A stretch of DNA of 64,000 nt from Natronospira bacteriovora (GTDB lineage Bacteria > Pseudomonadota > Gammaproteobacteria > Natronospirales > Natronospiraceae), in NCBI RefSeq assembly GCF_030848495.1, contig NZ_JAVDDT010000006.1:62001-126000 (forward strand), given 5' to 3'. Positions 27 to 10,360 of the stretch are shown here, piece by piece. Each line of letters starts with the position of its first letter. Within the stretch, counting starts at the first letter, position 1. The notes beneath the pieces were generated by a model. The model was not told where the DNA came from and did not search any database. It saw only the letters and a list, made by a program, of their open reading frames with translations. The position numbers and the translations under genes are program-made.

Positions 27-139
27 GGCCCATCACAGCGGTTGCCGGAGGGTGGGCGGGCGTCACGCCTTGCTTCTGCCTTTTTGATACGATGATGCTT
101 TGCCTTTCCAGCCATCGAAATGAGATTGTCCCCGCCCCC

Positions 140-1078
140 ATGAGCGAGAAAAAAGGTTTCTTCCAGCGCCTGCGCGAACGCCTGAACAAGGGCGACTCCA
201 TTCTTACCCGCGATATCACCGAACTGCTGCCCTCCAGTGGCAAGCCGGATGAAGGCACTCTGGAAGAACTGGAAACGCGGCTGCTGATGGCGGATGTGGG
301 TGTGGATGCCACCCGGAAGATCATGGATGGTCTGTACGAGCGGCTTGACCGCAAGGCCCTGGCGGATGGCGCCCAGCTTATGGCCGGCCTGGAAGCCGAG
401 ATCGAATCGCTGCTGGGGCCGGTGGAGGTGCCGCTGGTGCCGGAGCATTCGGGCGAGGGGCCTTTCGTGATTCTGGTGGTGGGCGTGAACGGCGCCGGCA
501 AGACCACGACCATCGGCAAGCTGGCACGACGCTTTCGGGACGAGGGCCGCTCGGTGATGCTGGCGGCCGGGGACACCTTTCGGGCGGCGGCGGTGGAACA
601 GCTGCAGGCTTGGGGTGAACGCAATGAGGTGCCGGTGATTGCCCATGCCACGGGGGCGGATTCGGCGGCGGTGGCCCATGATGCGGTGCAGTCCGCCCTG
701 GCCCGGGGCACGGATGTGCTCATGATCGATACCGCCGGCCGCCTGCACACCCAGGCCGGGCTGATGGATGAGCTGCGCAAGGTGAAGCGGGTGATCCAGA
801 AGGCCATGCCGTCGGCGCCCCATGAAACCCTGCTGGTGCTGGACGGCAGCACCGGCCAGAACGCCATTGCCCAGGCGCGGGAGTTTAATTCAGCGGTGGA
901 CCTCAGCGGCCTGGTGGTAACCAAGCTGGACGGCTCGGCCCGTGGCGGGGTGATCCTGGCCGTGGCCCGGGAGCTGGGCGTGCCGGTGCGATTCATCGGG
1001 ATAGGTGAAGGTGCCGAGGACCTGGATGTGTTCCGGGCGAAGGATTTTACTCGGGCACTGGTGGAAAAATCCGGGTGA
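140..1078 (+). CDS. ftsY: signal recognition particle receptor FtsY
   Basis: FtsY is the SRP receptor GTPase. It binds Ffh-ribosome complexes and delivers nascent membrane proteins to SecYEG at the inner membrane. The 312-residue product has the NG-domain signatures in order: P-loop GVNGAGKTT at about residues 115-123, DTAGR at about 197-201 and TKLDG at about 261-265. The acidic A domain is almost absent, as in short FtsY forms. I chose the ATG at 140 because MSEKKGFFQRL is the usual FtsY beginning; an in-frame ATG at 92 would add 16 unlike residues. It precedes ftsE-ftsX-rpoH as in many gammaproteobacteria, but a 280-bp palindromic element now separates it from ftsE, starting directly at its stop codon. 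The identification is firm; only the start is open. Confidence 0.96.
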   Translation: MSEKKGFFQRLRERLNKGDSILTRDITELLPSSGKPDEGTLEELETRLLMADVGVDATRKIMDGLYERLDRKALADGAQLMAGLEAEIESLLGPVEVPLVPEHSGEGPFVILVVGVNGAGKTTTIGKLARRFRDEGRSVMLAAGDTFRAAAVEQLQAWGERNEVPVIAHATGADSAAVAHDAVQSALARGTDVLMIDTAGRLHTQAGLMDELRKVKRVIQKAMPSAPHETLLVLDGSTGQNAIAQAREFNSAVDLSGLVVTKLDGSARGGVILAVARELGVPVRFIGIGEGAEDLDVFRAKDFTRALVEKSG

Positions 1079-1357
1079 AAACATTTGGCCGCGAAATGCA
1101 CGCGAGATGGACGCTAGATTTGGGCCGTGCCGGGTGAGGTGCCGTGCTGCTTCGGAGGGGCCGTGCTTTGGGATGGCGCGCCATCTCTACCAGCACCGTA
1201 GGCGCGGATTTATCCGCGATTGCAACCCATGAATTGTGATCGCGGATAATGGAACCTCCGAAGCAGCACGGCGGCGCACCAGGCACGACCCCACATTCGC
1301 GTCCATTTAGCGTGCATTTCGCGGCTAAAAAGGTTTTAAGGTTTTATCTCGTGGTCC
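1079..1357. repeat. nested palindromic intergenic element 1 (ftsY-ftsE)
   Basis: This element fills the ftsY-ftsE gap. The left arm (about 1084-1165) reads AAACATTTGGCCGCG, then 11-nt units ending ATGGACGCTAGAT, then GGGCCGTGC and CTTCGGAGGGGCCGTGC. The right arm (about 1253-1330) is its imperfect reverse complement. The centre carries a degenerate REP-like core, GTAGGCGCGGATTTATCCGCG, with an inverted partner GATCGCGGATAA near 1238. A tail of the outer module (GGTTTTATCTCGTGGTCC) follows the right arm. No gene is supported here. The element begins at the base after the ftsY stop codon and ends 26 bp before ftsE. Confidence 0.85.
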
Positions 1358-1383
1358 AGTCTCCCATTCAGCGGGGTTGAGCG

Positions 1384-2097
1384 ATGATCCGTTTTGATCG
1401 TGTCAGCAAGAGTTATCCCGGCGGCAATCAGGCGCTGAGCGATGTGAGCTTTGAGCTGGGGGGCGGTGAGTTTGCCTATCTGACCGGGCATTCCGGCGCG
1501 GGCAAGAGCACACTGCTGAAGCTGATTGCCATGCTCGAGCGCCCCACCCGCGGGCAGGTGCTGTTCGACGGGCGCAATCTGGCCAAGGTGGGCAAGTGGG
1601 GCATTCCCTATCATCGCCGCAAGGTGGGGCTGATCTTCCAGGACCACAAGCTGCTGCAGGATCGCACGGTCTTTGACAATGTGGCGCTGCCGCTGGTGAT
1701 CACCGGCATGGGGCATCGGGAGATGCGCCGGCGGGTGCAGGCGGCGCTGGATCAGGTGGATCTGCTGCACAAGGAGCACGCTCTGCCCATCACCCTCTCC
1801 GGGGGTGAACAGCAGCGGGTGGGCATTGCCCGCGCCGTGGTGGGTCGGCCGCCCATGCTGGTGGCGGATGAGCCCACCGGTAATCTGGACCCGGCGCTGT
1901 CGCGGGAGATCATGCGCCTGTTCGAGCGTTTTCAGCAGGTGGGGGTGACGGTGATGGTGGCCAGCCATGATCATGAGCTGATCCGGGCCTCCGGGCGGCG
2001 GGTGCTGACCCTTCAGGGCGGACAGATGGTGGAGGCACGGCTGGATGCTCCCCATTCGTCGGCGGATCATCACCCCGATCAGGGAGGGGCGTACTGA
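1384..2097 (+). CDS. ftsE: cell division ATP-binding protein FtsE
   Basis: FtsE is the ATPase of the FtsEX complex, which sits at the divisome and activates septal peptidoglycan hydrolases through FtsX. The 237-residue product has Walker A GHSGAGKST (residues 35-43), Q-loop region IFQDHKLL, signature LSGGEQQR, Walker B MLVADEP and a switch histidine in ASHDHE. The length is slightly above the usual 220-230 because of a polar C-terminal tail. Its TGA overlaps the ftsX ATG by one base, so the two are translationally coupled. The 5' flank is the tail of repeat element 1, so any local promoter would have to lie in or just after that element. Confidence 0.97.
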   Translation: MIRFDRVSKSYPGGNQALSDVSFELGGGEFAYLTGHSGAGKSTLLKLIAMLERPTRGQVLFDGRNLAKVGKWGIPYHRRKVGLIFQDHKLLQDRTVFDNVALPLVITGMGHREMRRRVQAALDQVDLLHKEHALPITLSGGEQQRVGIARAVVGRPPMLVADEPTGNLDPALSREIMRLFERFQQVGVTVMVASHDHELIRASGRRVLTLQGGQMVEARLDAPHSSADHHPDQGGAY

Positions 2098-3125
2098 TGG
2101 CTTCCCGTCGACCCCGCCCTGCCCGTCCCCGTCATTCCACCCACCGGGAAGCGGCCGCCCCCCGTGAGCGGCACGGCGCCCAGCGTTCCCGCGGTGGTGT
2201 CATCGGCTTTCTGCGGGCCTGGCTGATCCGCCATGCCCAGACCCTGTTCTTTACCCTGGGACGGCTCTGCCGCCGGCCCGGCTCCAGCCTGATGACCGCC
2301 TCTGTCATTGGTGTGGCCCTGGCCCTGCCGGCGGCCATGTACGTGCTGGTGCAGAACACCAGCGGCCTGGCCGGCAGCTGGGAAGGGGTGTCGCGGATTT
2401 CCGTGTTCATGGAGCCGGGCAGCGCGGAAGACGCCGCCCGACGGCTGGGCCGGGAACTGGAAACCCGGGAGACCGTGCAGCGAGTGGATTACATCAGTGC
2501 CGAAGAGGCCATGCGCGAGTTTCAGGACCGCTCGGGTTTCGGAGATGCTCTGGCGGTGCTGGACGATAACCCCTTGCCACCCGTACTGGTGGTTCACCCC
2601 ACGGAGGCAGCGGGTGGGGCCGATTCCCTGCGCGTTCTGGTGAATGAGTTCGAGAACCTGGAGGGTGTCGATCTGGTGCAGGTGGATACCGAGTGGATCG
2701 AGCGTTTCCACGCCATGCTGGAGATAGCCGAACGCGGCATTGCCGTGGTGGCCGCCCTGCTCGCCTTTGCGGTGCTGATCGTGGTGGGCAATACCATTCG
2801 ACTGGAGATTCAGAACCGGCGCGAGGAGATCGAGGTGACCAAGCTGGTGGGGGCAACCGATGCCTTCATTCGCCGCCCCTTCCTCTATACCGGCCTGTGG
2901 TACGGCATTGGCGGCGGGCTGGTGGCGCTGTTGCTGGTGGGCGGGGCGGTGATCGTGCTGCACGATCCGGTGCGTTCACTGGCCGGGCTGTATGGCAGCG
3001 GCTTTCGGCTCTCGGGCCTGGGCTTTGTGGAAAGCCTGCAGGTGATCGGCGCCGGTGCCCTGCTCGGCTGGGCCGGCAGCTGGCTGGCGGTGGCCAGGCA
3101 TTTGAGTGCCATTGAGCCGGCTTGA
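2097..3125 (+). CDS. ftsX: cell division membrane protein FtsX
   Basis: FtsX is the membrane partner of FtsE in the divisome. The 342-residue product has a basic, proline-rich cytoplasmic N-terminus of about 55 residues. A first membrane helix follows (SVIGVALALPAAMYVLV), then a periplasmic domain of about 130 residues, then three C-terminal helices, the first being IAVVAALLAFAVLIVVGN. This is the FtsX/permease topology. It overlaps ftsE by one base (TGATG). The stop codon is immediately followed by repeat element 2, which shares the words GAAACATTTAGCCGCG with other copies of the family. Downstream rpoH is convergent. Confidence 0.95.
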   Translation: MASRRPRPARPRHSTHREAAAPRERHGAQRSRGGVIGFLRAWLIRHAQTLFFTLGRLCRRPGSSLMTASVIGVALALPAAMYVLVQNTSGLAGSWEGVSRISVFMEPGSAEDAARRLGRELETRETVQRVDYISAEEAMREFQDRSGFGDALAVLDDNPLPPVLVVHPTEAAGGADSLRVLVNEFENLEGVDLVQVDTEWIERFHAMLEIAERGIAVVAALLAFAVLIVVGNTIRLEIQNRREEIEVTKLVGATDAFIRRPFLYTGLWYGIGGGLVALLLVGGAVIVLHDPVRSLAGLYGSGFRLSGLGFVESLQVIGAGALLGWAGSWLAVARHLSAIEPA

Positions 3126-3415: not shown

Positions 3416-4297
3416 TCAGGCGGTCATGTAACCCCGCAGTTTCTTGATGGCGCCGTTTTCGATCTGGCGGATGCGTTCGGCGGAGACGCCGTAGGTGTCA
3501 GCCAGTTCCTGCAGGGTGGCCTTGTTGTCGTCGTCCATCCAGCGGGCCTGCAGGATGGCGCGGGAGCGGTCGTCCAGCTGCGACAGGGCCTGGTTGAGGC
3601 GGCGGCTGCCGGATTCGCTCCAGTCGCTGGCCTCGACGGCGTTGGCCGGGTCGCTGTCGTGGTCGGGCAGGTACTGGGCCGGGGCGTAGACGTCCTCGTC
3701 GGACTCGCCCGCGCCGGGATGCGGATCGAAGGCCATGTCCTGGCTGGACAGGCGGCCTTCCATTTCCAGCACCTGCTCACTGCTCACGCCCAGGTCACGG
3801 GCCACGTTGTCCACTTCGTCCTTGCTGAACCAGCCCAGACGATGCTTGGCCTTGCGCAGGTTGAAGAAGAGCTTGCGCTGGGCCTTGGTGGTGGCGACTT
3901 TCACGATGCGCCAGTTGCGAATGACATATTCGTGGATCTCGGCGCGGATCCAGTGCACGGCGAAGGAGATCAGGCGGACGCCCACATTGGGGTCGAAGCG
4001 CTTGACGGCCTTCATCAGACCCACATTGCCTTCCTGGATCAGGTCGGCCAGGGGCAGGCCGTAACCCTGATAGCCCCGGGCCACGTGCACCACGAAGCGC
4101 AGGTTGGAGATGACCAGGCTGCGGGCGGCATCCAGATCGCCGTCATCGTGATAGCGATGCGCGAGATCCTGCTCTTCCTGTTCGGAAAGGACGGGAATGG
4201 CTCCGACGGCGGAAAGATAGCTCTCCAGGCTGCCGCTGGGGCCAGCCAGAGCGACGGCGGTGTTGTCGCGGATTGCCAAAGCCTTGCTGTCGGCCAT
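3416..4297 (-). CDS. rpoH: RNA polymerase sigma-32 factor RpoH
   Basis: RpoH is the heat-shock sigma factor that directs RNA polymerase to chaperone and protease promoters. The 293-residue product has sigma-70 region 2 ([19 protein letters not shown] and the following tryptophan-rich stretch), the RpoH-specific box [12 protein letters not shown] that binds core polymerase, and a C-terminal region 4 helix-turn-helix ([19 protein letters not shown]). The start ATG at 4297 has a GGGAGAGA ribosome site. A perfect CIRCE palindrome lies 35 bp upstream and overlaps a plausible promoter (TTAGCA-18 bp-TAAGAT), so HrcA control of rpoH transcription is likely. It is convergent with ftsX, the usual ftsYEX-rpoH neighbourhood with rpoH inverted. 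Confidence 0.97.
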
Positions 4298-4331
4298 GAT
4301 GTCTCTCTCCCGGTAAGTTCTGCTTCCTATC

Positions 4332-4358
4332 TTAGCACTCTGCGGGTTGGAGTGCTAA
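4332..4358 (-). promoter_or_regulatory. perfect CIRCE operator (HrcA site) upstream of rpoH
   Basis: The sequence TTAGCACTC-N9-GAGTGCTAA matches the CIRCE consensus exactly, with a 9-bp spacer. It ends 35 bp upstream of the rpoH start codon. It contains the stop codon (TAG, 4355-4357) of the preceding minus-strand gene. On the minus strand, TTAGCA and TAAGAT at an 18-bp spacing could form the -35 and -10 of the rpoH promoter, so bound HrcA would block polymerase. CIRCE is the operator of the repressor HrcA, usually found at groESL or dnaK; hrcA itself is not in this window. Confidence 0.92.
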
Positions 4359-5488
4359 CCGTTCCGGGAGTTCCCTCGGAAGCCTGCAAGCCCCTGGCGG
4401 CGTTGACGAAACAGGGCAGCAGCGGCGGTCAGCAGCAACAGGGGCAGCAAGGGGTCGAAACGGGCATCGGGGCCGCCCAGGGAGCACCTGCCGGCGAGGC
4501 TGGGATCATCACCCGGGCAGCGACCGGTATAAAACTCGAATTCCACCCACTCCGAGCTCATGCCCAGGTCATTGGTGAGCTGCACACGGCCAAACATGTT
4601 GGTGTCGCAATCCAGGCGTCGGGGCAACATGTAATTGATGGTGACGAAATCGCCCTCGCCGGCGGGAAAGTCTTGTTCCGCGACGGCATGATCGGTGAAG
4701 TCGGGATCCTCGCTGTAATGCAGTTCGGCGCTGCCGCCACGGTCATCGGGATTGGCCCGGACAAAGATGTAGACGATGGGCGGATCCAGCAGGCTGATCG
4801 CTTGCTCCACCTCGATCACCTGGGGCGGCTGAACATCCACGTCGAACGCCACATCGGTGTAGCGGCTGCCGCCCTCATGCAGGTAGATGGCGGGTTCGGG
4901 CTGGTAATCCGCGACCGGATTGCCGCGGGCAGCCAGGCGTACATTGGTATAGACCTGGTGACGCTGGGCGGGCAGCCGAAAGACCGCGACACCCTGATCG
5001 TCCGCATCCACAAGGAAGGGGCCTTCGCTTTCACCGCCGGCGCTGTCCAGGTACAGGCTGGCGGTGGCGCCGCCGGAGAGGCCGTGCACCGCCCCCTCGA
5101 TCCAGGCGTCGGCCGGACGCAGGTAAATGTCGCCGTGGTGAGTGGCCGTGCCGTCGCTGTCGAGGGGAAGCCAGCTGGAGTGAAATCCCTCGGCGCTCAC
5201 GGTCAGCGGGCCCGCCTCCGGCGTCGCCTCGATGAACAGGGAGAAATGCCCGTGCTCGTCGCTGACGACGGTGGCGCCGCCAGGCTCGCGAATCAGGACC
5301 TCGGCCATGGCCTGGCCCTGCGAATCCAGGATGCGCCCCTGCTGCAGCCCGTGGGCTGTGAATGCCGGGTCAGTGATTGCCGGGGCGGAGACTCGGCTTT
5401 CGCTGATCCCCTGGCCACTGGCCAGGAGTGCAAAGAGCAGGAGAGAAAGCAGGAAGACAGAGAGCGTTTGCTTGCTCGGCTTGTACAT
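4355..5488 (-). CDS. secreted carboxypeptidase-regulatory-like protein with C-terminal sorting tail
   Basis: This is a predicted exported protein of 377 residues and unknown specific function. The start at 5488 is chosen because AAGGAG lies 7 nt upstream and a signal peptide (LSVFLLSLLLFALLASG) follows; a longer in-frame extension to 5602 has no such support. Residues about 50-110 resemble a carboxypeptidase-regulatory/CNA-B-like beta fold (GRILDSQGQAMAEVLIREPGG..VVSDEHGHF). The rest is acidic and beta-rich. The tail is tripartite: CSLGGPDARFDPLLP, a hydrophobic segment, then an RQRR cluster. It resembles GlyGly-CTERM or JDVT-CTERM type surface-sorting signals and is shared with the neighbouring S8 protease. 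The two may be co-exported or act together. The stop codon lies inside the CIRCE site of rpoH. Confidence 0.75.
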   Translation of the reverse strand: MYKPSKQTLSVFLLSLLLFALLASGQGISESRVSAPAITDPAFTAHGLQQGRILDSQGQAMAEVLIREPGGATVVSDEHGHFSLFIEATPEAGPLTVSAEGFHSSWLPLDSDGTATHHGDIYLRPADAWIEGAVHGLSGGATASLYLDSAGGESEGPFLVDADDQGVAVFRLPAQRHQVYTNVRLAARGNPVADYQPEPAIYLHEGGSRYTDVAFDVDVQPPQVIEVEQAISLLDPPIVYIFVRANPDDRGGSAELHYSEDPDFTDHAVAEQDFPAGEGDFVTINYMLPRRLDCDTNMFGRVQLTNDLGMSSEWVEFEFYTGRCPGDDPSLAGRCSLGGPDARFDPLLPLLLLTAAAALFRQRRQGLAGFRGNSRNG

Positions 5489-5676
5489 GGAATGACTCCT
5501 TGGTGCGCCTGATTTTGCGCCGACCGGTGCTGCCCGCTGACCACCAGCCCATCCTATTACGATAAGTTTCGTAATCTTATAGCCCTGCCGGGGGAATTCC
5601 AAGCCCTTCGAAGGAAGCTCTGATTGATTCCCTCGCGCCCGGCACCGGGAAGCTTTTACGAACCATAAAACGAAAA

Positions 5677-5734: not shown

Positions 5735-8700
5735 TCAGACCCGGCGGCGTGCGAGCAGGCCAAGCATGGCCATGAGGGCAATCAAGGGCAACAGCGGGTC
5801 CACCGGCCCACGACCGTCACCCAGGCTGCAGCTTCCGCCGCTGCCACCGCCTGAACTGGCGCACTGGACCACGAAGTTGTCGGGATCCGTGGCCACAGTG
5901 TGCCCGCGGTCATTGGCGACGGAAATCTCGTAGAAGACTTCCTGATCGCACTCCAGACCACTGATCTCGAATTCCAGATCCACGAGGCCGTCCTCGGCGG
6001 ACAGGGTCACCTCCTCAAGGCTGGAATCAAGATCATCGGCACTGCTGCCGTAGTTCAGCGTGATCACCGAGGCACGTTCATTGCTGTCAATGCTGGCGGC
6101 AATGGTGGCGCTGGCGTTCATAGCCGTTACCACGGTGGCACTTTCGATCACCGGCGTCGTGGGCATCAGTGCCAGGTCACCGGCATCAACGGCATCGCCC
6201 ATGCCGGCGAAGCTGAAGCCATCGCCGCCCTGGTCGTCGCTGAAGTCCTCATAGCCGAAGCCGCGCACACGGATTTCGGCATAGGTGGCCTGGTAGTTGG
6301 CGTCCAGCTGGAAGGCGTCCTCGCCCTCGCCGCTGCCATTGATGACCACCGGACCCAGTTCCAGTTCGTCGGCACCACCCTGATAAACCAGGTAGAGGTT
6401 GACCGACTCGCCGTCTTCCAGACCGATTACCGAACCATTGATCTCGGCACTGGCACTCTGCAGAACCACGTCGCACTGCGGGGTGTCACCGACGCAGTCT
6501 GCGCCATCGACCACCTCGGAGACGTAGCCCGGCAGGGTGAAGGACAGGGCGTGGCTGTCCTCGCCTTCCGGCGCGGGGGCCGTCAGGGTAAAGACGCCGT
6601 CGCCGTCACTGAAGGCCATGTACTGACGCTCGGCCGGCCCAATGGCTTCCGGCGTGGCGACCTGCACGTCTGCGAGCTCGTGGCCCAGCTCATTGTGGAT
6701 CCAGCCGGCGTAGGTTTCGCCGACATCCACGGTCAGGCCATCAAGTACCACTTCGCCGTATGTGCCATCACTGGGCACGGCACGGATCTGGAAGGCAGTG
6801 GCTTCACTCACCCCGGCGCTGACCACATGGGAACGGGCCGCGTTGGCCGAGCCATGATCGTCATCCGCCGAGACATCCGCCGGATCCATGCTGGCAATGG
6901 CGGAGCCGTCCTGACCGTCGGCGTCTTCAACCAGCAGGCTGAAGCCGTAACCGGCGGTGGCACCGCGCACACGCACTTCCGTGCTGTCGCCATTGGCGAC
7001 CAGGTAATCATGGCGACTGTCGATGCCAAGATCCACGGACACCGTGAAGCTGACACTGGCGCCGGTTTCATCGTCCACCAGTTCGATGGTGTAGTCACCG
7101 GCGAAGGCACCCTGGGCAGGCACTTCGAACTCGTAGAAGGCGCCGTGGAAATCCACCACATTGGCGGATTCACCCGTGGTGACGTTCAGGGCCGAGGCGC
7201 TGAAGTCACCGGAACCACCACTGGGGTAGAAACGAACACGGTCGCCGGCGGCCAGGTTCATGTCCTCGATGGCATCACCGTTCTCGTCTTCGATGCTCAC
7301 TTCGTCATAGAAGTGATAGGTGGCGGCGACAACGATGGAGATGTCGTCCGGGCTGCCATCCGGATCAAAGGCCACCGCCTTGAGTGTGGTGGTCTCGCTG
7401 ATCTCGATGGATTCGCCACTGGCGATTTCCGTACCACTGGCCTGATCCGGCTCGGAGCCATCGGTGGTGTAATGGATGGTCATGTCCGTGTCGGCCACGG
7501 TGATGGTGACGTCCACCGAATCACCGGCCATCCAGGTACCGCCTTCGGGATCCAGGCTCGGGGCCGGAACGGCTTGATCAATATTGAGCTGGATGAAGGA
7601 ATCATCGGTCAATGTGCCGTGCGGCTGAACGGCATAGGTGCCCCAGAGGCGAACCGTCCACACACCGCTGTCGACCTGGCCGTCGAAGTCATCGATGCTG
7701 CGACTGTCACTGGAGGAACCACCAGAGGAAGGCCAGCCGAAATCGTAATCAAGCACTTCTCCGGGCGGTGCGTCCCAGGCATCGGCGGCACCGCCGGCCA
7801 GGATCCGCTCACCATCGGGGTCGATGATTTCCATGCGGAACTCATCACGCCATGCGCCGGAGGCGGTGCTGTAATTCAGCTCCCAGTCGATACCGGCCAG
7901 TTCCCCGCGGGGGGCGACCAGTTCGATTTCCAGCGCATTGCCCTGCCCGCCTGGAACGCTCACGCCATCCAGGTCGAAGCGGTCGCCGGTGTCGGGACCG
8001 GCCTCTTCACCATCAAAGGTCACGGCAACAGGCAGATGCGCACGGCTGCTGGCGCTGCTGTCTTCTTCGATCAGCACACCACCGAAGTGCCAGTCGCTGC
8101 CGCTACCGCCGGAAACGGTGACGGTGATTTCCTGGCTTTCACCCTCGACCAGGCTGAAGTTGGCGGGCGAAACCTGAATGTCGCCACCACTGAGACCGGC
8201 AATGACCGTCCAGCTGCCGTCGTGGGTGGCCGTGAGGGTGCGGGTCCAGCTGCAGCCTGCCACGTCACAGGCGAGACGTGTCAGGAAGGGGACGTTGAGT
8301 TCGTGCAGTTCCAGGGAACCGCCGTTGGGGTCGGCATCGACAAAGTTGTCGTAGGTCTCGTCCATCAGCAAGCCGGTGCGTGCCGCATTGGCCACGTTCA
8401 CCCGGCCGGAGCCCTGGTCGAAGATGTCCGCCGGGGTGCTGCCGTCTTCCTTCTTGAGCACACCGATGTCGGCGGTGAGCATCAGTGCCGACTGCAGTTC
8501 GGTGGGCGTCCAGTCGGGCTTGAGGGCACGCAGCAGGGCACCGGCACCGGCCGCGTGGGGCGAGGCCATGGACGTACCGCCAATGGCGACGTACTCGTCA
8601 TCGTCACCCACGTAGGCGGCCAGGACATTGTGGCCGGGGGCGACCACATCGGGGCCGGGCAGCATGCCGTAGGGGGCGTTGCCGGGGCCACGGGAGCTGA

Positions 8701-10360
8701 AACCGGACATCACGTCCGCGCCCTGCTGAACCATCTCGGTGGCATGCAGGCGGCCGCTGGCGTCGTCTTCGTCATTGACCCAGGCGATGAGATCCAGGGA
8801 GACCGGATAGTCCACCCAGACAGCCGGAATGGGGAAGTCGCCACCCATGGCCGGAATGCCGTGGTCACCGTAGTCGTCACCACTGTAGTAGATGGCGGCC
8901 ACCGCGCCCGCATCGGCCATGTTCACGGCCTTGTCGGCGAAGGGGCAGCCACCCACTTCAGCGACACCGATCATGCCGAGCATGCTGTCTTCGGGCAGGG
9001 CATTGCAGGCCTGGTAGTTGCCGGAGTCAACGGCATCCGCATCAACCAGCTCGGCATCAATCGCTTCAGGCAGGAAAAGGCCGGAGGACGGGATGGTGGC
9101 CATGTCTTCAAGATCCGCCGGCACCGGTTCGGGACCGGTGACGCTGGCCGGGGTAATGAAGCTGCCACCGTGATGGCTGCTGCCCACCGTGACGTTCCAC
9201 GGACCGAAGTTGGAGATGGTCTCCGCGCCCGGGCCGGAGTTGCCGCCCGCGGCGAATGTGGTCACGCCGGCTTCATTCAGGGACAGGAAGGCTGCGGCGG
9301 ATGACTCCCAGTAGGGGTCGCCGCCCCCCGAGACCGGACCGATGGAATAGTTGATGACATCCACCAGGCCACGTTCGAGGATATCCTCGGCCACGTCCGG
9401 CATGCCGGTGCAGCCACCGGCACAGATGCGGTAGTTGACGATGTTGGCCCGCGGCGCCACGCCGGACAGGGGAATCCCGCCGGGGGTGGTTACCGGGTTG
9501 CCGGCGGCGGTACCGGCCACGTGGGTGCCGTGACCGTTTTCGTCATGGGCATCCTCGGCACTGCCAAAGAAGAAGGAGCCGATGAGCTTGTCGTTACAGG
9601 CGTAACTGTCATCAAAGTCATCGTGTTCGGGATCACAGACACCGATGTAATTACCCGCACCCAGGGGGTTGACGTGCTCGTAGCCGTCGGAGGCCACGGC
9701 GGCAAAGGATTCGTGGGTGGACTGAATCCCGGAATCGACGATGCCGATCACCACGCCTTCACCACGGGTTTCGAGTTCGGCACCCAGTTCACCGCTCCAG
9801 ATGGGGGTGGCATTGATGTATTCGGGCCCGATGAAGGTCAGCGGCTGGTAAACGATCTCGCGCTTGATGTGGGCCACTTCGGGCATGGCCGCAATCTGGC
9901 GGGCGGTGCGCAGGTCGATTTCCACGGCAAAGGCGTTCAGGGCCAGCTGCCACTGACGCTCCGGCTGCAGGAAAACACCCGTCTCGGCGGCGATGCCGGC
10001 GATGACTTCCTGCTGACGCGTCTGCAGGTAGTCACGATAGGCCCGTACTTCAGCCCGGCTGGCGTCGAAACGCTCGGCGCCGGTCACCCGGTTGGAAGTC
10101 GCCTTAAGGCCGGGGATGCCGCCGCGATAGCGGGCAGCCGGTGGCTCATGCAGGCGAATGATGTAGGTGGCGCGCTCGTCAGGGTCTTCACCCCGCAGCT
10201 TGATGTGTGACGCCTGTTCCGGCGCGGCCGTGCGGGATAGCGCCTGATCGAGTGACTCGAATGCCTGGCCTGGCTGGCCGGCAAACAACGTCGCACTGCT
10301 CATGCCGAGCAGCAGGCTGGCCGCCAGTGTGGGCAGGCCCTTCTTTGCTGAGGTCATCAT
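5735..10360 (-). CDS. large secreted S8 subtilisin-like serine protease
   Basis: This is an extracellular subtilase of 1541 residues. Order of parts: signal peptide (1-27); inhibitor-I9-like propeptide (about 65-170, ATYIIRLHEPP); S8 domain with Asp209 (GIVDSG), His277 (GHGTHVAG), oxyanion Asn374 and Ser597 (GGTSMASPHAAG). A PA domain is inserted at about 405-545. Beta-sandwich modules follow, one with YTTDGSEPDQASGTEI, typical of chitobiase/hexosaminidase C-terminal domains. The C-terminus has Gly/Ser, CSLGDGRGPVDPLLP, a hydrophobic helix and RRR, a sorting signal like that of the next gene. All catalytic residues are present. The first ATG has AGGAGG just upstream. The sequence is strongly acidic, fitting a halophilic or alkaline habitat (inference). 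The 280-bp upstream region to 10641 shows only a small CCGAC..GTCGG inverted repeat near 10387-10402. Confidence 0.93.
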   Translation of the reverse strand: MMTSAKKGLPTLAASLLLGMSSATLFAGQPGQAFESLDQALSRTAAPEQASHIKLRGEDPDERATYIIRLHEPPAARYRGGIPGLKATSNRVTGAERFDASRAEVRAYRDYLQTRQQEVIAGIAAETGVFLQPERQWQLALNAFAVEIDLRTARQIAAMPEVAHIKREIVYQPLTFIGPEYINATPIWSGELGAELETRGEGVVIGIVDSGIQSTHESFAAVASDGYEHVNPLGAGNYIGVCDPEHDDFDDSYACNDKLIGSFFFGSAEDAHDENGHGTHVAGTAAGNPVTTPGGIPLSGVAPRANIVNYRICAGGCTGMPDVAEDILERGLVDVINYSIGPVSGGGDPYWESSAAAFLSLNEAGVTTFAAGGNSGPGAETISNFGPWNVTVGSSHHGGSFITPASVTGPEPVPADLEDMATIPSSGLFLPEAIDAELVDADAVDSGNYQACNALPEDSMLGMIGVAEVGGCPFADKAVNMADAGAVAAIYYSGDDYGDHGIPAMGGDFPIPAVWVDYPVSLDLIAWVNDEDDASGRLHATEMVQQGADVMSGFSSRGPGNAPYGMLPGPDVVAPGHNVLAAYVGDDDEYVAIGGTSMASPHAAGAGALLRALKPDWTPTELQSALMLTADIGVLKKEDGSTPADIFDQGSGRVNVANAARTGLLMDETYDNFVDADPNGGSLELHELNVPFLTRLACDVAGCSWTRTLTATHDGSWTVIAGLSGGDIQVSPANFSLVEGESQEITVTVSGGSGSDWHFGGVLIEEDSSASSRAHLPVAVTFDGEEAGPDTGDRFDLDGVSVPGGQGNALEIELVAPRGELAGIDWELNYSTASGAWRDEFRMEIIDPDGERILAGGAADAWDAPPGEVLDYDFGWPSSGGSSSDSRSIDDFDGQVDSGVWTVRLWGTYAVQPHGTLTDDSFIQLNIDQAVPAPSLDPEGGTWMAGDSVDVTITVADTDMTIHYTTDGSEPDQASGTEIASGESIEISETTTLKAVAFDPDGSPDDISIVVAATYHFYDEVSIEDENGDAIEDMNLAAGDRVRFYPSGGSGDFSASALNVTTGESANVVDFHGAFYEFEVPAQGAFAGDYTIELVDDETGASVSFTVSVDLGIDSRHDYLVANGDSTEVRVRGATAGYGFSLLVEDADGQDGSAIASMDPADVSADDDHGSANAARSHVVSAGVSEATAFQIRAVPSDGTYGEVVLDGLTVDVGETYAGWIHNELGHELADVQVATPEAIGPAERQYMAFSDGDGVFTLTAPAPEGEDSHALSFTLPGYVSEVVDGADCVGDTPQCDVVLQSASAEINGSVIGLEDGESVNLYLVYQGGADELELGPVVINGSGEGEDAFQLDANYQATYAEIRVRGFGYEDFSDDQGGDGFSFAGMGDAVDAGDLALMPTTPVIESATVVTAMNASATIAASIDSNERASVITLNYGSSADDLDSSLEEVTLSAEDGLVDLEFEISGLECDQEVFYEISVANDRGHTVATDPDNFVVQCASSGGGSGGSCSLGDGRGPVDPLLPLIALMAMLGLLARRRV

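Follow-up and report, generated by a model that had tools for sequence, protein, structure and literature searches.

The rpoH locus and the elements in front of it

The window, by which we mean the whole stretch of 64,000 nucleotides of Natronospira bacteriovora DNA that was analyzed, carries on its minus strand the gene for the heat-shock sigma factor sigma-32. A perfect CIRCE operator, TTAGCACTC-N9-GAGTGCTAA, lies before this gene and is overlaid by promoter-like elements. The features of this region are as follows.

3416..4297, minus strand: rpoH, encoding the 293-aa heat-shock sigma factor sigma-32 (TIGR02392 rpoH_proteo, 405.9 bits; model cutoff 323.1)
4329..4337, minus strand: possible extended -10 element of sigma-70 type, TGCTAAGAT, overlapping the right arm of CIRCE
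4332..4358: CIRCE operator (predicted HrcA site), an exact match that is kept before rpoH in relatives
4347..4351, minus strand: putative sigma-E (RpoE) -10, TCCAA, in which the TC that ends the left arm of CIRCE is joined by the three spacer bases after it; separated from the -35 by 16 bp
4368..4374, minus strand: putative sigma-E -35, GGAACTC
4355..5602, minus strand: gene for a JDVT-CTERM domain protein, upstream of rpoH (NF033191, 33.7 bits); the real start is perhaps the ATG at 5488

A scan of the window returns the operator with 0 mismatches and as the sole match at up to 3 mismatches, with 0 matches in 100 shuffles. The first-pass annotation had reported a perfect CIRCE 35 bp before rpoH; the exact match stands, and the distance to the ATG is 34 bp. 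Its further suggestion, that the site is under dual constraint from the upstream gene, holds only in part. The stop codon TAG (4357-4355) does lie inside CIRCE, and the last codons cover the putative -35, but the constraint is small because the open reading frame at 4355-5602 covers just 4 of the 18 arm bases.

The same annotation described a likely promoter over the operator. Promoter-like sequence is indeed found there, although it is more specific than was noted, consisting of a sigma-E-like element, which had been missed, together with the possible extended -10. The motif GGAACTC-N16-TCCAA differs from the sigma-E consensus GGAACTT-N15/16-TCNAA at one base of the -35, and a comparable motif arises in 4 of 20000 shuffles of the 300 bp upstream. 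Read as a sigma-70 promoter, the region has a poor -35.

The surrounding genes present some features of their own. The minus-strand genes at 4355-5602 and 5735-10360 both encode JDVT-CTERM sorting tails, the second scoring just under the model cutoff; the 1541-aa product of the latter matches subtilisin-like serine protease families. The product of 4355-5602 has a short extension beyond its tail, which reaches into the rpoH control region. In gammaproteobacteria the usual order along one strand is ftsX and then rpoH; here, ftsY-, ftsE-, and ftsX-like open reading frames on the plus strand (92-3125) run toward the minus-strand rpoH.

HrcA and its sites in the genome and in relatives

Both the repressor gene and further CIRCE sites, which the first-pass annotation had proposed to look for, are found in the genome, so that its refuting condition of a missing hrcA does not hold. 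Profile searches identify a full-length HrcA (PF01628, E 1.5e-69; TIGR00331, 339 bits), with grpE encoded after it. A second perfect CIRCE is found some 55 bp ahead of groES; with a limit of 2 mismatches, this site and the one at rpoH are all that the genome contains. The operator of hrcA itself was missed at up to 3 mismatches, and a looser direct scan recovered it with 4:

L004, 1104-1130: degenerate hrcA operator, CTGGCACTC-N9-GAGTGCCAG, a perfect palindrome whose departures from the consensus are symmetric

An initial reading in which hrcA lacks CIRCE was accordingly rejected. Symmetric weakening of this kind is seen repeatedly at the hrcA sites of relatives. A third match in the genome (C8:97168, 3 mismatches) was also discarded, as it falls in a repetitive stretch with no clear downstream gene.

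The association between CIRCE and rpoH extends well beyond this organism. Among 95 genomes (our own and 94 relatives), 87 have an rpoH match and 66 have hrcA. CIRCE lies 34-133 bp before the rpoH match in 55 of 61 hrcA-positive genomes, versus 4 of 26 hrcA-negative ones (Fisher 1.7e-11), and three of those four, having no detected hrcA, are only 62-90% complete. The association persists when one genome per family is counted, with the site present in 38/44 hrcA-positive and 3/25 hrcA-negative genomes (1e-9). No site within 2 mismatches precedes rpoH in six hrcA-positive genomes, although one of the six has a site with 3. Among 18 further genomes, taken from a different collection in which rpoH loci with and without the site had been scanned, hrcA is found in all 11 with CIRCE before rpoH and in 0 of the 7 without it, these seven being three Methylophaga, three Acinetobacter, and one Psychromonas. 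CIRCE before rpoH is thus common in hrcA-bearing gammaproteobacteria and not peculiar to N. bacteriovora. That its presence tracks that of hrcA in both genome sets strongly favors its identification as an HrcA operator, and HrcA control of rpoH through it is very likely. In one relative, a tandem pair of CIRCE sites, five bases apart, precedes rpoH (G028:C61:202567-202625).

Promoter elements conserved over the operator

To examine the flanks, 65 distinct rpoH sites, taken from explicit rpoH loci, were aligned on CIRCE and compared with 35 groES and 26 hrcA sites as controls. The sequence GGAACTT appears nine bases upstream of the operator, its GGAAC portion at 82-91%. The spacer of the aligned rpoH sites starts T-A-A, so that the combined sequence, GGAACTT-N16-TC-N-A-A, reproduces the RpoE motif. 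A GGAACTT-like -35 at the right gap (8-10 bases from CIRCE) occurs at 52/65 rpoH sites, 0/35 groES sites, and 2/26 hrcA sites, where the groES set, drawn by a regex classifier, includes a few mirror-orientation sites (likely L016, L048, and L209) and the hrcA set includes two rpoH sites (L006 and L137). With the same control sets, [AC]A is found in the spacer of 44/65, 5/35, and 6/26 sites, respectively; the corresponding counts for NAT behind the right arm are 54/65, 1/35, and 3/26. In the rpoH alignment AAT at this position yields TGCTAAAAT, which resembles an extended -10. The groES operators instead follow a TTGAC...TATTAT promoter. Across the class, 189 of 369 genomes contain the composite pattern when up to 3 mismatches are allowed. 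This is an upper figure, since at 3 mismatches ordinary CIRCE sites whose flanks fit by chance are also counted; the reversed pattern is absent among the matches listed.

The sigma-E element is separable from the operator, because GGAACTT-N16/17-TC is retained where CIRCE is absent at most of the Methylophaga rpoH genes examined, and the Acinetobacter rpoH loci examined have neither CIRCE nor the sigma-E element. A. baumannii is without RpoE, and the RpoE motif is approximately GGAACTT and TCAAA (PMC12153292).

These patterns bear on the first of three alternatives, namely that HrcA represses rpoH through a sigma-70 promoter only, with GGAACTT unused by sigma-E or otherwise employed. Such a reading fits the retention of the extended -10-like TGCTAANAT at 54 of the 65 sites. 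It also fits the genome-wide count of GGAACT-N16/17-TCNAA in N. bacteriovora, which at 10 matches, against 10 for the reversed control, shows no enrichment; the sigma-E assignment therefore rests on conservation before rpoH. Nor was a convincing sigma-E motif found when we looked before the organism's own rpoE. However, GGAACTT at a fixed gap to TC-N-A-A is a known RpoE motif (PMC12153292, PMC8103513), and its persistence without CIRCE in Methylophaga and its absence from Acinetobacter run counter to a sigma-70-only promoter. The genome moreover encodes RpoE (TIGR02939, 315.7 bits, above cutoff) next to a protein with an RseA_N domain (37.7 bits, below the RseA equivalog cutoff). We regard this alternative as unlikely.

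One match in the genome, an exact sigma-E-like motif at L252 (1501-1527), lies 59 bp before an open reading frame whose N-terminus resembles FtsH. In E. coli, the FtsH protease degrades sigma-32.

The second alternative holds that HrcA binds the site with little effect on rpoH, the level of sigma-32 being set mainly after transcription. This is the situation in E. coli, where sigma-32 is governed mainly by translation and degradation. It is difficult to reconcile with near-perfect conservation of the site before rpoH in many families: at loci picked by protein match rather than by site, the median is 0 mismatches for rpoH and 2.5 for hrcA. We consider a largely silent operator quite improbable. 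The same difference in site strength makes for a graded arrangement, which may reflect a higher HrcA affinity at rpoH than at its own gene.

Finally, the inverted repeat might act at the RNA level, forming a stem-loop in the leader of rpoH that affects its stability or translation, instead of serving as a DNA operator. RNA structure does control rpoH translation in E. coli, and the 61-nt leader containing the repeat folds at -13.1 kcal/mol (z -1.8). Yet transcripts from either proposed -10 would miss the left arm, and truncated leaders are no more stably folded than shuffled sequences. What is conserved in the arms is the exact CIRCE sequence and not pairing alone, and the site is largely absent where hrcA is absent. 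We consider a role in RNA very improbable.

We thus favor the explanation that CIRCE is an HrcA operator placed exactly on the rpoH promoter and acting in the circuit proposed below, to which, taken as a whole, we assign a probability of about 0.8.

Proposed circuit and relation to known systems

From the observed sites and genes, their co-occurrence, and the conserved promoter-like elements with their spacing, we infer HrcA binding, repression, and release on heat, as well as promoter activity and the sigma factor using each element. In the absence of stress, HrcA, its DNA binding aided by GroE, would occupy CIRCE before rpoH and block sigma-E polymerase at GGAACTC-N16-TCCAA, and probably also sigma-70 polymerase at the extended -10. 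Upon heat or titration of GroE, HrcA would leave, allowing sigma-E, which signals envelope stress, and sigma-70 to transcribe rpoH; sigma-32 would then raise chaperones and proteases. The release step is proposed because it has been shown for HrcA elsewhere, the C. jejuni protein being a thermosensor stimulated by GroE (PMC8533110). HrcA would also repress groESL directly through its perfect CIRCE, forming a coherent feed-forward arm, and its own hrcA-grpE operon through the weaker palindrome, giving negative feedback through hrcA and GroE. Hence, HrcA probably gates both envelope-stress and housekeeping transcription of rpoH.

The first-pass annotation had pictured the two heat-shock circuits as wired in series. 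The link from HrcA to rpoH is supported, as CIRCE tracks hrcA, but the wiring would not be simply serial, because HrcA sites also precede groES and hrcA, adding feed-forward and autoregulation, and because the rpoH CIRCE overlaps a sigma-E-type promoter.

The comparative data suggest that gammaproteobacteria which have kept HrcA show this overlapping arrangement as a rule. We hold it somewhat more probable than its converse that rpoH is a core HrcA target across hrcA-bearing members of the class, that one arm of the composite CIRCE provides a sigma-E -10 and the other arm an extended -10, that HrcA gates, according to temperature, the input of envelope stress into the cytoplasmic heat-shock response, and that the weaker hrcA operator lets the repressor gene be derepressed first. 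If so, heat-shock control by repression (HrcA) and by activation (sigma-32) would form one circuit in most hrcA-bearing gammaproteobacteria, and HrcA would also decide when sigma-E may feed it. The model is directly testable in culturable genera such as Alcanivorax.

The operator is identical to that of the HrcA/CIRCE systems controlling groESL and dnaK operons in Bacillus subtilis and many other bacteria, and N. bacteriovora likewise has hrcA and a perfect groES CIRCE. In contrast to those systems, the target here is the gene of a heat-shock sigma factor, and its operator overlaps promoter-like elements, whereas the groES operator follows a sigma-70 -10. The putative RpoE-type motif before rpoH has its counterpart in E. 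coli rpoH P3, long established as RpoE-dependent (PMC8103513). A control profile search of E. coli gave no HrcA match, and rpoH control as understood in E. coli omits HrcA because the organism is without hrcA. P3 is not known to be overlaid by a CIRCE.

The closest precedent is Geobacter sulfurreducens, for which a perfect CIRCE before rpoH (position -51) was predicted in 2004, along with sites for groESL and the hrcA operon (PMC545781). That case concerns a delta-proteobacterium and is a prediction only, and it is not known to include overlap with a sigma-E element. Our search of the open literature found no description of a composite sigma-E/CIRCE element in gammaproteobacteria. Within that literature, CIRCE before rpoH was thus anticipated in Geobacter, and the combination of sigma-E element and CIRCE, together with its reach across the class, appears to be new.
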